Shown in pieces: positions 36,555-45,639 of a DNA stretch of 45,639 nucleotides. A program made the translations under genes and the position numbers. The stretch is from a virus. Each line of letters begins with the position of its first letter. The first letter of the stretch is position 1. Below the pieces are notes generated by a model. That model saw nothing but the letters and a program-made list of their open reading frames with translations. It had not been told where the DNA came from and made no database searches. The DNA lies in the IMG/VR virus record IMGVR_UViG_3300043398_000221, positions 1 through 45,639 of that record; one strand, written 5' to 3'.

Positions 36555-36575
36555 ATTTTTTTTGTAGTACCTTTG
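36545..36575 (+). promoter_or_regulatory. Strong rRNA-type promoter of Ro-like gene
   Basis: TTG (in TTGACAAACG, 36545-36547), 20 nt including T8, TAG, then TACCTTTG (36568-36575). The block TAGTACCTTTGCA is of the type found at Bacteroidetes rRNA promoters. A 36-nt A-rich leader without a purine-rich SD leads to ATG 36612. Confidence 0.85.
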
Positions 36576-36611
36576 CATAACTTAACACTAAAACAAATTA
36601 AATTCAATCCT

Positions 36612-38051
36612 ATGAATTCTTTATTATCTGCAATGCAAACAAGAGATGCACGTACTGAAAATGGTATGGCAACTAATTCAACTTCGTTGAACAACTGTGT
36701 AGACTTGTTCTTCACTATCGGCGCTATGCGTGGTCAAGATAAGACTCGTCTTATCAACGCTTTTACAAAAGCATTTGCAGAAGATGCTTTGACAGCCATG
36801 AAATTACTTTTCTGGGCACGTGACGTGCGTGGTGGTGCTGGTGAGCGTCAAATCTTCAAGGATATTATGACATACCTTGCAAATAACCGTACTGAGGTTA
36901 TGCGTAAGAACCTTCACTTGGTAAGTGAATTCGGTCGTTGGGACGACTTGCTTGTACTTTTCGGTACACCATTGGAAGACGATGCGTTGTCATTGATTTC
37001 AGCTGGTTTAAAGGCGAAGAATGGTCTTTGTGCTAAGTGGATGCCACGTCCAAACACTGCTAACCGTGAGGCTAAGCGTCAAGCAAATACTTTGCGTAAG
37101 TTCTTGGGTTTATCACCTAAAGAATACCGTAAGATGTTGGTTGAAAATTCCAACACCGTAGAACAACTTATGTGTTCTAACGAATGGGGTGCGATTGAGT
37201 ACTCTAAGTTGCCATCAAAGGCAATGTCTGACTTGATGAAGACATTCTCTCGTCACGATGCTGTACGTTTTGGTGCGTACTTGGCTAGCCTTGAAAAGGG
37301 TGAAACCAAAATCAATGCTGGTGCCGTATACCCATACGACATCACAAAGAACTTGCGTTTCGGTAACTCTAAGGGTGCTGACTTGCAATGGAATGCGCTT
37401 CCAAATTACATGGAAGGTAACACAGAACGTATCATACCTTTGGTTGACGTTTCTGGTTCTATGAGTTGTCCAGCTGGCGGTAGTTCAACTGTTACTTGTA
37501 TGGAAGTGGCAATCTCTTTGGGATTGTACATCTCAGAACGTAACGTTGGGCCATTCAAGAATGCGTTCATCAGCTTCCACTCAAACCCACAACTTCACGT
37601 TGTGAGTGGTTCTCTTAGTGAAAGATACAACCAAATGGCTCGTTCTGATTGGGGTGGTTCTACCAACCTTCAAGCAGCCTTCAAGAAGGTATTGGATACA
37701 GCTGTTAAGAACAATGTTCCAGCTGAGGATATGCCAACAATGATGTTGATACTTTCAGACATGGAGTTCAATATGGCGGTTGGTCATGGTGGTTGGAATG
37801 CAACAGCGCAAGACATGATTGAAAGCATGTACCGTAACGCAGGTTACGAAATGCCAAAAATCGTGTACTGGAACATCCAATCACGTGGTGATAAGAACAA
37901 ACCAGTTCAATTCGATACGAATGGTACTGCGTTGGTTTCTGGGTTCAGCCCAGCTTTATTGACAGGCTTGCTTGCTGGTAAAGAAATGACGCCATTCTCT
38001 ATGATGATGAACATCATCGGAACTGAACGCTACTCTGTAGTTACAGTTTAA
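36612..38051 (+). CDS. Ro60/TROVE-DUF2828-like vWA protein
   Basis: 479 aa from ATG 36612; a longer frame begins in the promoter. The N-terminal helical repeat region has LLFWARDVRGGAGERQIFKD and LVSEFGRWDDLLVLFGTP, typical of TROVE/DUF2828 ring proteins. The C-terminal von Willebrand A domain has an intact MIDAS: DVSGSMS (Asp279), Thr in WGGSTNL, and LSDMEF. Ro60 and its bacterial relative Rsr bind misfolded RNAs and Y RNAs. Arg codons are nearly all CGT, with AAG, AAC and TTC common, unlike neighbours, which indicates very high expression. Assignment to DUF2828 rather than true Ro60 is possible. Confidence 0.82.
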   Translation: MNSLLSAMQTRDARTENGMATNSTSLNNCVDLFFTIGAMRGQDKTRLINAFTKAFAEDALTAMKLLFWARDVRGGAGERQIFKDIMTYLANNRTEVMRKNLHLVSEFGRWDDLLVLFGTPLEDDALSLISAGLKAKNGLCAKWMPRPNTANREAKRQANTLRKFLGLSPKEYRKMLVENSNTVEQLMCSNEWGAIEYSKLPSKAMSDLMKTFSRHDAVRFGAYLASLEKGETKINAGAVYPYDITKNLRFGNSKGADLQWNALPNYMEGNTERIIPLVDVSGSMSCPAGGSSTVTCMEVAISLGLYISERNVGPFKNAFISFHSNPQLHVVSGSLSERYNQMARSDWGGSTNLQAAFKKVLDTAVKNNVPAEDMPTMMLILSDMEFNMAVGHGGWNATAQDMIESMYRNAGYEMPKIVYWNIQSRGDKNKPVQFDTNGTALVSGFSPALLTGLLAGKEMTPFSMMMNIIGTERYSVVTV

Positions 38052-40039: not shown

Positions 40040-40693
40040 TTAAGGTCTGGTACTTGTTCGTCTTATTTTAGTATAAGGCCAACCAGTTTTTTCATGAATC
40101 AAATCATACATACGCCCAATAGTAGCTTTGGTGGCGGTACCCATAAACATGATAGATTTAATCTTTTGTTTAGCCGTTACCTTAGCTAGGGTGTGATGTA
40201 ATCTTTGGGCATCTTCCATACATTTACAAATAATCATGTCAAATTGGTTTTCATTGTAAATGATTAATTTGTTGTAAACAACAATCACTTGCTTCACCAT
40301 TTTTTTAGAGTGAGCTCCAGCAACTAATTTTTTTACTATTACACCGATATCTGGTCTATCATCACCATCATATCCGTATATTGTAAAAGTTTCTTCAACT
40401 TCATACGGTAACGAGTGCAGTATCGTCCAATCACCTAATGGTTTTTCCGTATATAGCTGTCCTAACTCATTTCTGAGCGTTCTGAAGGTATCATCAGGTT
40501 GAGTTGGCTTAACAACACATATTTCAAATTTGACTGGCTTAATGCGCCCAGAATTGAGCCATTTTTTAGGGTAGGTAACTTTATTTGATTCCTTGATTTT
40601 ATAGAAGTTTAAAAACGCAGTTTCTCTGGACTTACACCTATGTAAAGTCTTCTTATACAGTCCGTTAACCAATAAAACCACACGATAAACCAT
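40040..40693 (-). CDS. Hypothetical protein, reverse strand
   Basis: 217 aa. Basic; N-terminus VYRVVLLVNGLYKKTLHRCK, a central alpha/beta region (TFTIYGYDGDDRPDIGVIVK), and a helical basic C-terminus. No known domain. It is divergent from dnaJ with only 57 nt between the ATGs, so the two promoters must overlap; a minus-strand -7 box is not clear. Confidence 0.6.
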   Translation of the reverse strand: MVYRVVLLVNGLYKKTLHRCKSRETAFLNFYKIKESNKVTYPKKWLNSGRIKPVKFEICVVKPTQPDDTFRTLRNELGQLYTEKPLGDWTILHSLPYEVEETFTIYGYDGDDRPDIGVIVKKLVAGAHSKKMVKQVIVVYNKLIIYNENQFDMIICKCMEDAQRLHHTLAKVTAKQKIKSIMFMGTATKATIGRMYDLIHEKTGWPYTKIRRTSTRP

Positions 40694-40699
40694 AAAAAT

Positions 40700-40730
40700 T
40701 TGCTTTTGTCATAAAATTTACGTACCTTTG
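40700..40730 (+). promoter_or_regulatory. Host-type promoter of dnaJ
   Basis: TTG (40700-40702), 20 nt, TACCTTTG (40723-40730), 20-nt leader to ATG 40751. Confidence 0.75.
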
Positions 40731-40750: not shown

Positions 40751-41746
40751 ATGGCTAAAAAAGATTACTATGAAATTTTAGGGTTAACCAGTGGTGCGTC
40801 TGAAGCAGATATTAAGAAAGCGTATAGAACTCTGGTTAAAGAATGGCATCCAGATGTAAATAAAACGCCAGAAGCGGAAGAAAAATTTAAAGAAATCGCT
40901 GAAGCGTATGAGATATTATCGGATGAAACCAAGCGTAGGAATTACGACACTTATGGTCATGTTGATAATGAAAACACTAGTGCCTATAATTCCGCTTTTA
41001 GTGGCTTTGCAAGGCGTGCTAAACAAGTACCAGTTGGTGCTGACCTATCAATCATTGTACCTCTAACTCTAGAGGAATTACATACAGGTATCAAACGAAC
41101 GTTTAAGTTTAAACGTGAAGTCTTATGTAGTGATTGTGATGGAAAGGGTGGTGAAGATATTGAGACATGTACAACATGTCAAGGTAACGGACAAGTCTAC
41201 CGTCTGGTGTCAACACCTATGGGTAAATTTCAATCGGTAACAATGTGTCACGTTTGTAATGGTCACGGAACCATACCTAAAATTTTATGTAAAACATGTG
41301 ATGGACACGGTGTGATAAGCCGCGAAGATGAGATAAATGTGGAAGTACCGAAAGGTGTTTTCAACAACTCGATTTATATCATGGAAGGTCAAGGTGATGC
41401 TGTTAAAGGTGGTATCAACGGTAACTTGAACATTAAAATAACTGAGTTAGCGCATAAAACCTTTACTCGTGTTAAAAACGATTTAAAAACAACACTCAAT
41501 GTTCCGTTTACAACACTTGTTTTAGGTGGTAAAGCTGAAGTCCCAACAATTGATGGCACCATAATAAGGGTCAACATTCCACCACATAGTGACATTGGTA
41601 CAACCTTACGAGTTAATGGTAAAGGAATGTCCATTTATGATTCTGAAGAACGAGGTGACATGCTTATCAATTTAGGTGTTGTAATCCCAAAAAAGATTAC
41701 CGATGAACAACGACAATTATTGGAAAAGCTAGAAGAGACACAATAA
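40751..41746 (+). CDS. dnaJ: DnaJ co-chaperone, type A
   Basis: 331 aa. J domain with HPD at residues 33-35. The Gly/Phe-rich linker is almost absent: only a short [12 protein letters not shown] stretch follows the J domain. A zinc-finger domain follows with four C-x2-C-x-G-x-G units ([32 protein letters not shown]; residues about 128-190), then the substrate-binding C-terminal domains ([35 protein letters not shown]). It is shorter than bacterial DnaJ (about 375 aa), mainly at the linker and C-terminus. It would engage host DnaK. Confidence 0.93.
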
Positions 41747-41761
41747 TTTTTTATTTTTTAC

Positions 41762-41792
41762 TTGCAAATATCGAAAGTAGTTAGTATCTTTG
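41762..41792 (+). promoter_or_regulatory. Host-type promoter
   Basis: TTG (in TTGCAAATAT, 41762-41764), 20 nt, TATCTTTG (41785-41792), 30-nt A-rich leader to ATG 41823. It probably drives the genes up to ClpP and the LETM1-like gene. Confidence 0.75.
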
Positions 41793-41822
41793 TAAAAATA
41801 ACAAACATCATAACTACAAACG

Positions 41823-42263
41823 ATGGCAAAATATCGCGAACCCTTTCAGGACACTGAAGAATTGTTTAAGACCGTATTAAGTGAAACTGGTCTTGAGCGT
41901 ATGGTTAATGTGACTGTATTAAGTCAGGATAACCTAAAAGAAATTACGAAAGTAAGCAAAGCTAATGATTTGATTAAACACATGACACAATATGATGTCG
42001 TTGTGCTTATCAACGAAATCATCTTCGACCAACTTACTGATGACCAAAAACGTATCGTTGTTGAGGAAGCTATTTCTCACATCAGCTACGATTCCGAAAA
42101 TGATAAGTTGACAATTTCAAAACCAGATTTCGTTGCACACTCAGGTGTTCTTCGTAAGTTCGGATTTGAAACACTTCAAACACTTCGTGAAAGCATCAAA
42201 TCGTTGTATCAAGCTCAGAAAGAACAGGAAGATGAGTCTGAAGTTCTTAACGGTGAAGCATAA
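41823..42263 (+). CDS. Phage metallopeptidase-like protein, degenerate site
   Basis: 146 aa. FDQLTDDQKRIVVEEAISHI followed by KLTISKPDFVAHSGVLRKFG resembles the putative phage metallopeptidase family, where the corresponding helix carries HExxH. Here it reads EEAISH: the first His is replaced by Glu, although the second His remains, so zinc catalysis is doubtful. Arg codons are all CGN, as in the Ro-like gene, which suggests high expression. Placed between DnaJ and ClpP. Identification is by pattern only. Confidence 0.5.
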   Translation: MAKYREPFQDTEELFKTVLSETGLERMVNVTVLSQDNLKEITKVSKANDLIKHMTQYDVVVLINEIIFDQLTDDQKRIVVEEAISHISYDSENDKLTISKPDFVAHSGVLRKFGFETLQTLRESIKSLYQAQKEQEDESEVLNGEA

Positions 42264-42514
42264 TGACTGTTGAAGAAATCTATGAGTTAGCACCTGACGC
42301 ATTATTATGTGATGGGTTTGATGAAGCAATAATTGGTGTTGCTGAAAGAAAAGGAATGGAGCCAGTTGTGGCTTACAATAAATGGAAAATAATTGACATA
42401 CTCATGAATAGAGATGGGATGTCTTATGAAGAAGCGGTGGAATTTTTCGACTTTAACATCATTGATGCTTGGGTAGGTGAAATGACGCCAATCTTTATTC
42501 AAACAGAACTTTAA
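42263..42514 (+). CDS. Hypothetical small acidic protein
   Basis: 83 aa, helical and acidic; the ATG shares a base with the preceding stop and ClpP starts 1 nt after its stop. EIYELAPDALLCDGFDEAII and the DGMSYEEAVEFFDFNIIDAW segment suggest a compact helical fold. Close coupling to ClpP makes an adaptor or inhibitor role thinkable, but nothing in the sequence proves it. Confidence 0.6.
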   Translation: MTVEEIYELAPDALLCDGFDEAIIGVAERKGMEPVVAYNKWKIIDILMNRDGMSYEEAVEFFDFNIIDAWVGEMTPIFIQTEL

Positions 42515-42515
42515 C

Positions 42516-43220
42516 ATGGACTACGGAAAGGATTTTGAGAATTACGCTGTGAAGCATTTGGGTATTAGTTCAGCTACGTTATACCAGTGGCAACAACTTC
42601 AGGAAAAATTATATGGTGTTGGTGCATCATTAACACCATATATTCTTGAAGAGAAAGAAATGAGGGCAGTGCAGATTGATATCTTCTCTCGAATGATGAT
42701 GGACAGAATAGTATGGTTAGCGGGGCCAGTAAACGACAGAATGAGCACTGTTGTTCAAGCACAGTTGATGTGGATGGACACACAGAGCAATAATGACATC
42801 ACGTTACACGTTGACTCACCAGGTGGGTCCGTGAAATCTGGTCTATCAATCGTTGACGTTATGGATTATATTTCGTCTGATTTGGTCACAATCAACACAG
42901 GTATGGCTGCTAGTATGGGTAGCATCTTGTTAGGTGCTGGAACAAAAGGAAAACGTTTTTCTTTGAAGCATAGCAAGGTAATGTTACACCAAGTATCTAG
43001 TGGTGCTGAAGGTACAATCCAAGACCTTAGAATATCGTTGGATGAGACTGAAAAATACAACAAAATACTTTTTGGTTTGTTAGGTGAATACACTGGTAAA
43101 GACCCAGAAGTTGTTTTGAAAGATGCTGATAGAGATAAATGGTTGACAGCTGACGAAGCGTTAGCGTATGGTATCATTGACGGTATTATTGGTAAAAAGA
43201 AAGAAACAAAAAAGAAATAA
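42516..43220 (+). CDS. clpP: ClpP protease subunit
   Basis: 234 aa. The N-terminus DYGKDFENYAVKHLGISS resembles Bacteroidetes ClpP, so origin from such a host is likely. The core has SLTPYILEEKEM, DSPGGSVKSGL, the nucleophile Ser133 in GMAASMGS, His158 in MLHQ and the Asp of the DRDKW segment (residues 205-209), so the catalytic triad is complete. ClpP forms a double heptameric chamber fed by ClpX or ClpA; no unfoldase is encoded in the window. About 20 residues near 24-40 look inserted relative to cellular ClpP. Confidence 0.92.
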   Translation: MDYGKDFENYAVKHLGISSATLYQWQQLQEKLYGVGASLTPYILEEKEMRAVQIDIFSRMMMDRIVWLAGPVNDRMSTVVQAQLMWMDTQSNNDITLHVDSPGGSVKSGLSIVDVMDYISSDLVTINTGMAASMGSILLGAGTKGKRFSLKHSKVMLHQVSSGAEGTIQDLRISLDETEKYNKILFGLLGEYTGKDPEVVLKDADRDKWLTADEALAYGIIDGIIGKKKETKKK

Positions 43221-43585
43221 TGTCAGAGCAACATCATAATTTAGCTGATTACTATCACAGTATTCGGGATAAAGCGAAAGACTTCTTTGAGAAAGTCCAT
43301 CAAGAAAGTGATGAAACCAAAGAAGCCTTTTCGCTGATGATGTCATCAATCAACGGTGAAAAAGAATTGACCGATGAAGAAAAAGCTAAGATTGGTGAGC
43401 AATTCAAAGATGTATTAAAAACAATCGGTTTGGTCGGGGCCACTATCTTACCAGGTGGGTTCTTGTATTTCTTGATAGCTAAGGTCTTCAAACTGAATAA
43501 GTTCGTCTTACCAAGCGCTTTTAATAAAGAAGAACCCAAAAAAGATGGTGAAAATCCAGACCAAAAAACCATTGATGGTCAATAA
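43220..43585 (+). CDS. LETM1-like small membrane protein
   Basis: 121 aa; the ATG shares a base with the ClpP stop. The region LTDEEKAKIGEQFKDVLKTI, then VGATILPGGFLYFLI and KFVLPSAF near residues 52-102, matches the short LETM1-like form with one hydrophobic segment and the P-G-G ... P-S-A-F pattern. LETM1 proteins sit in membranes and have been linked to cation exchange and ribosome contact. Role in a phage unknown; ClpP coupling is notable. Confidence 0.6.
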   Translation: MSEQHHNLADYYHSIRDKAKDFFEKVHQESDETKEAFSLMMSSINGEKELTDEEKAKIGEQFKDVLKTIGLVGATILPGGFLYFLIAKVFKLNKFVLPSAFNKEEPKKDGENPDQKTIDGQ

Positions 43586-43630
43586 AATAACCAAAATGTG
43601 TAGTTTTGGTTAAAATAATGACCAAAAAAC

Positions 43631-43661
43631 TTGACAAATTGATTTTTTTGTAGTACTTTTG
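43631..43661 (+). promoter_or_regulatory. Strong host-type promoter of tmRNA
   Basis: TTGACAAATT (TTG 43631-43633), 20 nt with T7, TACTTTTG (43654-43661). The predicted start near 43665 leaves about 40 nt of 5' leader for RNase P removal. Confidence 0.8.
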
Positions 43662-43673
43662 TACTGTAATTGA

Positions 43674-43681
43674 TATTTATC
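43674..43681 (+). promoter_or_regulatory. Late-type element before tmRNA
   Basis: TATTTATC, 23 nt before the mature tmRNA 5' end. With the host-type promoter upstream, tmRNA could be made both early and late. Confidence 0.4.
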
Positions 43682-43704
43682 CTTTACACACGTTCTTTTT
43701 TTAT

Positions 43705-44063
43705 GGGGCTGCCTTGGATTTGATTGAATAATGTCAAATATTGTAAGCATGTAGTGCTAAATTGGAAGCACTTTAAACTGTCTATTGAACTTTTAAATGA
43801 CGACACATTTGCTGTCTCTGAAAATTTCCTTGAAGAAGCTACACTTAGCGTCTCTGGAGAGCTTGCGTTGGTCTAAATAACGCTCATGGTAATACGTTTT
43901 ACCTAATGGTGGTAAATCCACTTGATTATGGTAGGCCATACGCTCTAGGTTGATGAGCGTTACGACAACAACATATTCTTGCGCGAGAAGATAAAGATGT
44001 GCTAAACATGTAGAAAGCTTTTGAAGACTATTTAAGACAGGGGTTCGACTCCCCTCAGCTCCA
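43705..44063 (+). ncRNA. ssrA: tmRNA (transfer-messenger RNA)
   Basis: 359 nt. The 5' end GGGGCTG pairs perfectly over 7 bp with CAGCTCC at the 3' end (G-U at one pair), discriminator A, CCA not encoded. The T arm AGGGG-TTCGACT-CCCCT is intact. 5' TTGGATTTGA and 3' AAACATGTAGAAAGC are typical tmRNA sequences. A candidate first pseudoknot is AGTGCT/AGCACT at about 43751-43770. The tag frame is probably 43799-43876: DDTFAVSENFLEEATLSVSG plus ELALV, then TAA in the loop of GCGTT/AACGC. That is 25 codons and ends LALV, not the usual ALAA; the resume codon is inferred. Confidence 0.92.
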
Positions 44064-44114
44064 CTCAATTTTTTATTGATTCTCATTTTAACTTCCTTCT
44101 TAATGAGAAATTAC

Positions 44115-45392: not shown

Positions 45393-45398
45393 CAAATT

Positions 45399-45469
45399 GG
45401 GGAAGTCTTCTAATTTTCAGGATACGGCCATATGAGGCCGCGATTGAGGTGTGAATCCTCACTTCCCCA
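45399..45469 (+). tRNA. tRNA-like element, anticodon unclear
   Basis: 71 nt. Acceptor GGGGAAG/CTTCCCC (7 bp), discriminator A, D stem TTCT/AGGA with a D loop lacking GG, T stem TGAGG/CCTCA with loop TGTGAAT instead of TTCGAAT. The anticodon arm CGGCC/GGCCG leaves a 6-nt loop (ATATGA), or 8 nt if one pair opens, so no standard anticodon can be named. Degenerate tRNA or tRNA mimic. Confidence 0.5.
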
Positions 45470-45639
45470 CTAGGGTGCTCAGTAAAGCCTCTTGCGAACG
45501 CAACGTAACTGATGGAAGTAATCAAAGTAGCTCTTTGATGACGCCTTCCAAAATATACTGAGGTAGTTTAAATGCTAGAACGGCCCCATTGCGGGGGTAG
45601 ATAGGGGTGAAAGGCCCTTCCTCGGTACAAAAAGATTTC
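45470..45639 (+). ncRNA. Highly structured non-coding RNA, runs off the window
   Basis: Nested helices: CTCAGTA (45478-45484) with TACTGAG (45556-45562); inside it TTGC-GAAC-GCAA, GGAAG (45514-45518) with CTTCC (45545-45549), and ATCAAAG-tagct-CTTTGAT (45521-45539). Beyond: CCCC-attgc-GGGG and AGGG/CCCT hairpins. No coding frame. The arrangement next to tRNAs in a phage resembles the GOLLD class of large RNAs, as an inference. Confidence 0.55.

Follow-up and report, generated by a model that had tools for sequence, protein, structure and literature searches.

A conserved phage island of ClpP, DnaJ and tmRNA as the probable core of a viral trans-translation and proteolysis pathway

Introduction

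Why phages carry transfer-messenger RNA (tmRNA) is an open question that is usually met with speculation. The locus described here raises it in a particular form: what does a phage tmRNA do beside genes for a peptidase and a co-chaperone? The window, that is, the whole stretch of DNA analyzed, is the 45,639-base linear fragment in IMG/VR record IMGVR_UViG_3300043398_000221. Genes for DnaJ, a metallopeptidase-like protein, a small acidic protein, the peptidase ClpP and a LETM1-like protein, followed by a tmRNA, lie consecutively on its plus strand (40751-44064), each where an earlier note, made from the letters alone, had placed it. That note proposed a phage-controlled pathway of trans-translation and degradation, a proposal now supported by a gene order that is kept in dozens of related viral contigs. 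We put the probability at roughly 0.6 that this locus provides the core of a pathway of trans-translation and proteolysis that the phage encodes, in which the tag feeds the phage's own ClpC and ClpP (ClpCP). Because the tmRNA shares a conserved island with a peptidase, and an unfoldase and often SmpB are found in the same genomes, it becomes a testable hypothesis that these viruses own a complete rescue and degradation pathway with a private degron. The elements of the island are as follows.

40751..41746, plus strand: DnaJ co-chaperone, 331 amino acids (Pfam PF00226/PF00684/PF01556, phrog_14336)
41823..42263, plus strand: predicted zincin-fold pseudo-metallopeptidase, PF18894 'phage metallopeptidase', 146 amino acids (Pfam E 1.8e-11)
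42263..42514, plus strand: acidic 83-amino-acid protein, phrog_13182 (PHROG; start overlaps the preceding stop, TAATG)
42516..43220, plus strand: ClpP peptidase, Bacteroidota-type, 234 amino acids (Pfam PF00574, NCBIfam PRK14514, residues in 64 sequences)
43220..43585, plus strand: LETM1-related small membrane protein, accessory, 121 amino acids (NCBIfam NF040639; start overlaps the clpP stop, TAATG)
43705..44064, plus strand: phage tmRNA (ssrA), one-piece, CCA not encoded (ARAGORN, Rfam RF00023, clade nhmmer profile, covariation)
43799..43876, plus strand: tag reading frame, DDTFAVSENFLEEATLSVSGELALV and stop, 25 amino acids (alignment with 45 distinct tag sequences)

Conservation of the island

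Scanning IMG/VR with the window ClpP protein gave 80 loci, with 63 distinct ClpP sequences among them. The counts are drawn from this one collection, in which related sequences are not independent, and the records that hold the relatives are either fragmentary or of uncertain completeness. A tmRNA lies on the same strand within 2 kb downstream of ClpP in 46 of the 63 distinct ClpP loci, at a spacing that varies from 0.1 to 2 kb. DnaJ, usually 0.5-1.6 kb upstream of ClpP, is present in 32 of the 33 tmRNA-bearing loci that have enough flank. When all loci with enough flank are counted, 32 have both, six have DnaJ only, one has tmRNA only and seven have neither (Fisher p 2e-4, uncorrected for shared ancestry).

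The recurrent order, which reaches contigs of up to 380 kb, is a vWA/DUF2828 gene, a gene for a 121-amino-acid protein, a divergent gene for a 217-amino-acid protein, DnaJ, the pseudo-metallopeptidase, the 83-amino-acid protein, ClpP and tmRNA. The conserved core is DnaJ, the pseudo-metallopeptidase, the 83-amino-acid protein, ClpP and tmRNA. A survey of related phages had been suggested as the check on the proposed pathway. The order proved to be kept in dozens of viral contigs, and scattering or independent loss of the genes was not seen within the clade. The LETM1-like gene, which the note had counted as part of the island, is indeed present in the window. It is an accessory, as homologues occur in few relatives (about six of the 80 loci).

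The tmRNA and its tag

The window tmRNA matches Rfam RF00023 with 83.9 bits (E 3e-31). In a 33-sequence alignment, 97.8% of the cells of the acceptor stem, the T stem and the GCAUGU helix are paired (94.7-100% per helix). Compensatory double changes occupy 102 cells of these helices against a shuffled mean of 30, and none of 500 shuffles reaches 102. The alanine-identity G3-U pair is invariant (33/33). The tmRNA is structurally sound and not a chance match. A profile built from the clade found full-length tmRNA at more than 100 bits in 60 of the 80 loci, of which ARAGORN called 27; the standard finder thus misses about half of these phage tmRNAs.

The tag is long. It comprises 25-26 residues in all 45 distinct sequences, each in frame with a stop, and follows the pattern [GD]N-x-F-x-[VI]-[SD]-ENFL...GE[LV]A-x-[AV]. 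The N at position 9 and the E at -5 are invariant among these sequences, ENFL is nearly so, and the ends include ELAVA, EVAFA and EVALA. The ratio of nonsynonymous to synonymous polymorphism (pN/pS) is 0.43 in the tag frame and 1.04 and 1.27 in the two shifted frames. Since the ratio is low in frame only, the tag is, to judge from the pattern of substitution, under purifying selection as a peptide. The tag start called by ARAGORN (AVSENFLEEATLSVSGELALV, AVSENFL...) was rejected by alignment, in which homologues start four codons further 5', at the position that corresponds to GAC 43799. The Bacteroidota genomes that were checked have nine-residue tags (GENNYAMAA, GDNNYAMAA and GENNYALAA), and the commonest length in the tmRNA database is 10 (PMC11915505).

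Other tmRNAs were encountered in the course of the survey. The 380-kb record G010 carries, besides the ClpP-linked tmRNA, a second one (L093, G010:C1:327939-328335) with a different 21-residue tag, GNILENATVGHFVAEDAAVVA, and an encoded CCA. A locus of the wider phage group, L125, has a long unrelated tag, GNTTFWSLVNETVNTPVTEELLAA, and the Lak-C1 tmRNA has a short tag, DDEIDFRMAA, and lies far from ClpP. Short-tag tmRNAs at L048:16732-17071 and L065:16733-17072 may reflect a replacement event. At L028:10851-10894, a partial 5' tmRNA piece just upstream of a complete tmRNA looks like the remnant of a duplication.

ClpP and its partners in related phages

The window ClpP matches Pfam PF00574 with an E value of 1.3e-56, and its N-terminal extension of about 37 residues is covered by the match to PRK14514, the cellular ClpP of Bacteroidota. 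All 64 phage sequences retain the Ser-His-Asp triad. Most positions of the unfoldase-docking pocket are kept. Tyr62 (E. coli Y62), present in all six host ClpPs checked, is replaced by His in 57 of the 64 phage ClpPs. The replacement would fit a private interface with an unfoldase.

Partner genes were sought in ten large relative records. A Clp/Hsp100 C-terminal domain was found in seven of them, and Pfam SmpB exceeded its cut-off in four (G002, G003, G004 and G007; 150-183 bits). SmpB is also encoded in five further records, which brings the total to nine, and has a normal conserved core. The island-bearing records of at least 230 kb number six (G002, G003, G004, G005, G007 and G010, of which G005 has the same locus as G004 in a shorter record); an unfoldase is encoded in all six and SmpB in four. 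Among named phages with a ClpP, all seven that were checked encode a Clp ATPase: three uncultured phages of 634-642 kb, two Lak phages, XaC1 and 121Q. A phage that has ClpP thus normally has an unfoldase of its own as well.

In the large relatives the unfoldase has 821-840 residues, with a Clp_N domain, two AAA modules that both carry Walker motifs and, as read by eye, a UVR-like linker. These features were read in L082-L087; in L088 the gene is interrupted by an intein-like insertion. The best match in the PDB is ClpC of Bacillus subtilis or Staphylococcus aureus (767 bits), and [MV]G[FL] is kept at the position of the ClpP-docking loop. ClpB is not known to have a ClpP-docking loop. By its domain content and sequence matches, the unfoldase of the clade is classed as ClpC-type, not ClpX. 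Unfoldases dock to ClpP by IGF/IGL loops, and ClpC needs an adaptor or a substrate to assemble (PMC8138137).

From the window, the earlier note had listed ClpX, SmpB and DnaK as absent and had expected host partners to be used. No such absence can be concluded from a 45-kb fragment. The use of host ClpX and SmpB is unsupported for the clade, in which relatives encode ClpC with a docking loop and several encode SmpB. The genome from which the window derives is likewise expected to carry ClpC and SmpB outside the fragment. The absence of DnaK was borne out, as Hsp70/DnaK profiles had hits in 0 of the 10 large relatives, and DnaJ must therefore work with host DnaK or alone.

The ClpC and SmpB loci have features of their own. 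In L088 (G003:C1:236000-240500), the ClpC gene is split at the second Walker A, before the T of GPTGVGKT, by the intein-like insertion (Pfam Intein_splicing). Of the eight SmpB loci that were read, seven (L089-L092, L095, L096 and L097) have a gene for an RNA polymerase sigma factor after SmpB, with one small open reading frame (ORF) between the two in L089, and a gene for a calcineurin-like phosphatase often lies just upstream of phage SmpB.

DnaJ and the small proteins

DnaJ is a type A J-protein with J, zinc-finger (four CxxC) and C-terminal domains. The HPD motif, at residue 33 in the window, is present in 49 of 50 sequences.

The PF18894 protein had been described as a degenerate metallopeptidase, and the description held: the zinc motif HExxH is absent from all 51 clade sequences, and an active metallopeptidase was rejected. 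The AlphaFold2 model of the protein has a predicted local distance difference test score (pLDDT) of 87, and the best Foldseek matches are the minimal metallopeptidases selecase and jannalysin (probability 1.0, E 4e-3). Because the modeled fold resembles selecase and HExxH has been lost, the protein is best read as a pseudo-enzyme, with a predicted zincin fold that lacks the zinc motif. Weak hits of its C-terminal stretch to beta-lactamases in a PDB profile search (E 0.01) were judged spurious given the selecase fold. The 83-residue protein has an isoelectric point of 4.05. Its model is confident (pLDDT 94), and a fold search with this model gave no significant match. We hypothesize that these two proteins are the best candidates for an adaptor or regulator of ClpC, because they are encoded in close succession immediately 5' of clpP, and assembly of ClpC depends on an adaptor or substrate.

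The LETM1-related ORF matches NF040639 with an E value of 3e-10, below the curated cut-off, and has no match to Pfam LETM1. The protein has one hydrophobic segment (residues 69-87).

Promoters and probable host

A consensus scan placed three promoters of the Bacteroidota type in the island.

40700..40730, plus strand: Bacteroidota-type promoter TTG-N20-TAccTTTG, for dnaJ
41762..41792, plus strand: Bacteroidota-type promoter TTG-N20-TAtcTTTG, for the operon of pseudo-metallopeptidase, 83-residue protein, ClpP and LETM1-like protein
43631..43661, plus strand: Bacteroidota-type promoter TTGACA...TActTTTG, for the tmRNA

The whole plus strand of the window contains 15 sites of the form TTG-N20-TAnnTTTG, compared to 2.7 in shuffles, and the same kind of promoter is found 5' of the tmRNA in 52 of 60 relatives, compared to 1.4% of shuffles. 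In the middle of the island the genes leave almost no space between them: TAATG overlaps occur at 42263 and 43220, and a single nucleotide separates clpP from the gene before it. Three promoters heading genes indicate three units, and therefore the island probably consists of three transcription units that share one promoter type.

The host of the window phage is probably a member of the Bacteroidota, because the promoters before dnaJ, the pseudo-metallopeptidase gene and the tmRNA are of the Bacteroidota form. Contigs with relatives were found inside metagenome-assembled genomes of Bacteroidetes and Flavobacteriaceae, consistent with such a host. At the DNA level, the window has only weak or partial matches to named phages.

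Proposed pathway and alternatives

We infer that tag, ClpC and ClpP cooperate, with parts for the adaptor candidates and DnaJ, in the following way. During infection, cleavage of mRNA and fast transcription would produce truncated messages on which ribosomes stall. Host alanyl-tRNA synthetase would charge the phage tmRNA through its G3-U pair, phage SmpB, where encoded, or host SmpB would deliver it to these ribosomes, and rescue would append the phage-specific tag of 25-26 residues. The tag seems bipartite: an adaptor or the N-domain of ClpC may recognize the internal ENFL, and the unfoldase may recognize the small hydrophobic C-terminus (GE[LV]A-x-A). Phage ClpC, whose gene lies in another part of the genome, would then unfold the tagged protein for degradation by phage ClpP; this would free ribosomes and amino acids and remove fragments. 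The pseudo-metallopeptidase or the 83-residue protein may act as adaptor or regulator for ClpC, and DnaJ may recruit host DnaK and hold nascent or tagged chains soluble.

Several observations weigh against this pathway. The window fragment has neither SmpB nor ClpC, and a tblastn search of it and of the first 80 loci found neither gene. Where ClpC and SmpB are encoded, they lie tens to hundreds of kilobases from the island, and only ClpP is linked to tmRNA. SmpB is not universal, as the 380-kb G010 has two tmRNAs and ClpC and no SmpB was found in it. Some relatives of ClpP (L041, L072 and L074-L081) occur without the island, and the subgroup of L048 and L065 has DnaJ and ClpP together with a short host-like tag (GNAEYAMAA) and a tmRNA about 6 kb from ClpP. 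Finally, recognition of the tag by ClpC is presumed, and host ClpXP could also read an end such as ...ALV or ...AVA.

A stricter form of the proposal is that the pathway is orthogonal, the 25-residue tag being a private degron handed by a phage adaptor, either the pseudo-metallopeptidase or the 83-residue protein, to a ClpC-ClpP pair with a docking interface diverged from that of the host, so that ribosome rescue and selective proteolysis would both run without dependence on host ClpXP. We advance this form tentatively, as an idea that could well prove wrong. If these viruses do own a complete rescue and degradation pathway with a private degron, it would show that a tag can diverge together with its unfoldase and peptidase within a single cell, and the phages would provide a new orthogonal degron-protease pair for laboratory use.

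The phage may instead rely on its host, with SmpB supplied by the host, the tag read by host ClpXP, and phage ClpP mixing with or supplementing host ClpP. The lack of SmpB and of an unfoldase in the window fragment, the ssrA-like tag ends (ALA/AVA/ALV) and the tmRNA of G010 without SmpB would all be accounted for in this way. It is nevertheless unlikely, because relatives encode SmpB and a ClpC with a docking loop, the docking pocket of phage ClpP is altered compared to that of host ClpP, and the tag is about 2.5 times longer than the host's and unlike it, whereas a tag read by the host need not diverge.

Ribosome rescue by itself could also be the purpose of the tmRNA. The tag would then protect, be neutral or feed a sensor of lysis timing or stress, and ClpP and DnaJ would serve separate functions in host takeover. 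The separate promoter of the tmRNA and its variable distance from ClpP (0.1-2 kb) are compatible with such independence, and Al-Shayeb et al. mention tmRNA as a possible sensor of host state (PMC7162821). Selection on the tag peptide, including its C-terminal E[LV]A-x-A, a neighborhood kept over dozens of divergent contigs and the Clp ATPase of ClpP-bearing phages make this explanation quite improbable. That ClpP is a head-maturation (prohead) protease unrelated to tagging, as its best PHROG match (phrog_94, 'head maturation protease') would have it, was rejected as very improbable, since NCBIfam scores it at 235.6 bits as cellular Bacteroidota ClpP (PRK14514) versus 71.9 bits as head-maturation ClpP, seven of the ten large relatives encode a separate S77 prohead protease, and no capsid or portal genes were recognised beside ClpP.

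Relation to known systems

The proposed phage-encoded pathway shares much with bacterial trans-translation by tmRNA-SmpB and ClpXP or ClpAP: a one-piece tmRNA with a tRNA-like domain, the G3-U pair, a tag frame with a stop and a small hydrophobic tag end, SmpB (in relatives), and ClpP with an AAA+ partner. It differs in that the gene is linked to those of ClpP and DnaJ, the tag has 25-26 residues rather than the nine of the hosts, the partner is of ClpC type rather than ClpX, and the docking pocket of ClpP is altered. The E. coli ssrA tag is bipartite, with an SspB-binding part and a ClpX-binding end (PMC8138137), and the phage tag resembles it in that it too seems to have two parts. The closest functional parallel is Mesoplasma florum, in which Lon, not ClpXP, recognizes a tag that differs in length and sequence (PMC8138137). 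There too an unusual tag is matched to a non-ClpX protease as an orthogonal degradation pair. The difference is that Lon acts in a cell without ClpXP, whereas the viral ClpCP is proposed to act in a host that keeps its own system. In domain content and sequence the phage unfoldase corresponds to ClpC of the B. subtilis ClpCP system; unlike that system, with its adaptors MecA and McsB, no homologue of either adaptor was recognised near phage ClpP.

Both tmRNA and SmpB were already known in huge phages (Al-Shayeb et al. 2020, PMC7162821), and phage tmRNAs have been described in mycobacteriophage Bxz1-like phages, Bacillus phage G and Melnitz phages (PMC4131195, PMC9004378). As in the present case, a phage carries the tmRNA, and in some of them SmpB as well. 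The searched text of these three reports describes neither a link between tmRNA and ClpP nor a Clp unfoldase to match, and the main text of PMC7162821 does not mention Clp. The ClpPs of the jumbo phages Asteriusvirus 121Q (gp464) and Xanthomonas phage XaC1 are homologues (about 45% over the core), and each of the two genomes also encodes a Clp ATPase. Unlike the island ClpP, they are not beside an annotated DnaJ or a tmRNA, and no tmRNA match over the Rfam cut-off was found in either genome. The island of phage ClpP or ClpC with tmRNA was undescribed in the literature searched, which is weak evidence of novelty since most subscription journals were not covered. Three features seem to be new: the conservation of an island of ClpP, tmRNA and DnaJ, the long tag under selection, and the pairing with ClpC.

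Neighboring genes and minor observations

Two genes upstream of the island recur in its relatives.

36573..38051, plus strand: DUF2828/DUF7788 (vWA) protein, phrog_850 'RNA-binding protein' (Pfam, PHROG, synteny)
40040..40693, minus strand: divergent gene for a 217-amino-acid protein, directly upstream of dnaJ (syntenic in most island loci)

The 217-residue protein has no match in Pfam, PHROG or NCBIfam and is 31-71% identical across the clade. The phrog_850 protein is a strongly conserved neighbor with a possible link to RNA quality control; a structural link to Ro60 was sought, and a PDB sequence search gave no match. Downstream of the island, a tRNA-like stretch (GGGGAAG...CTTCCCCA) at 45397-45471, uncalled by ARAGORN and Rfam, has a plausible T arm.

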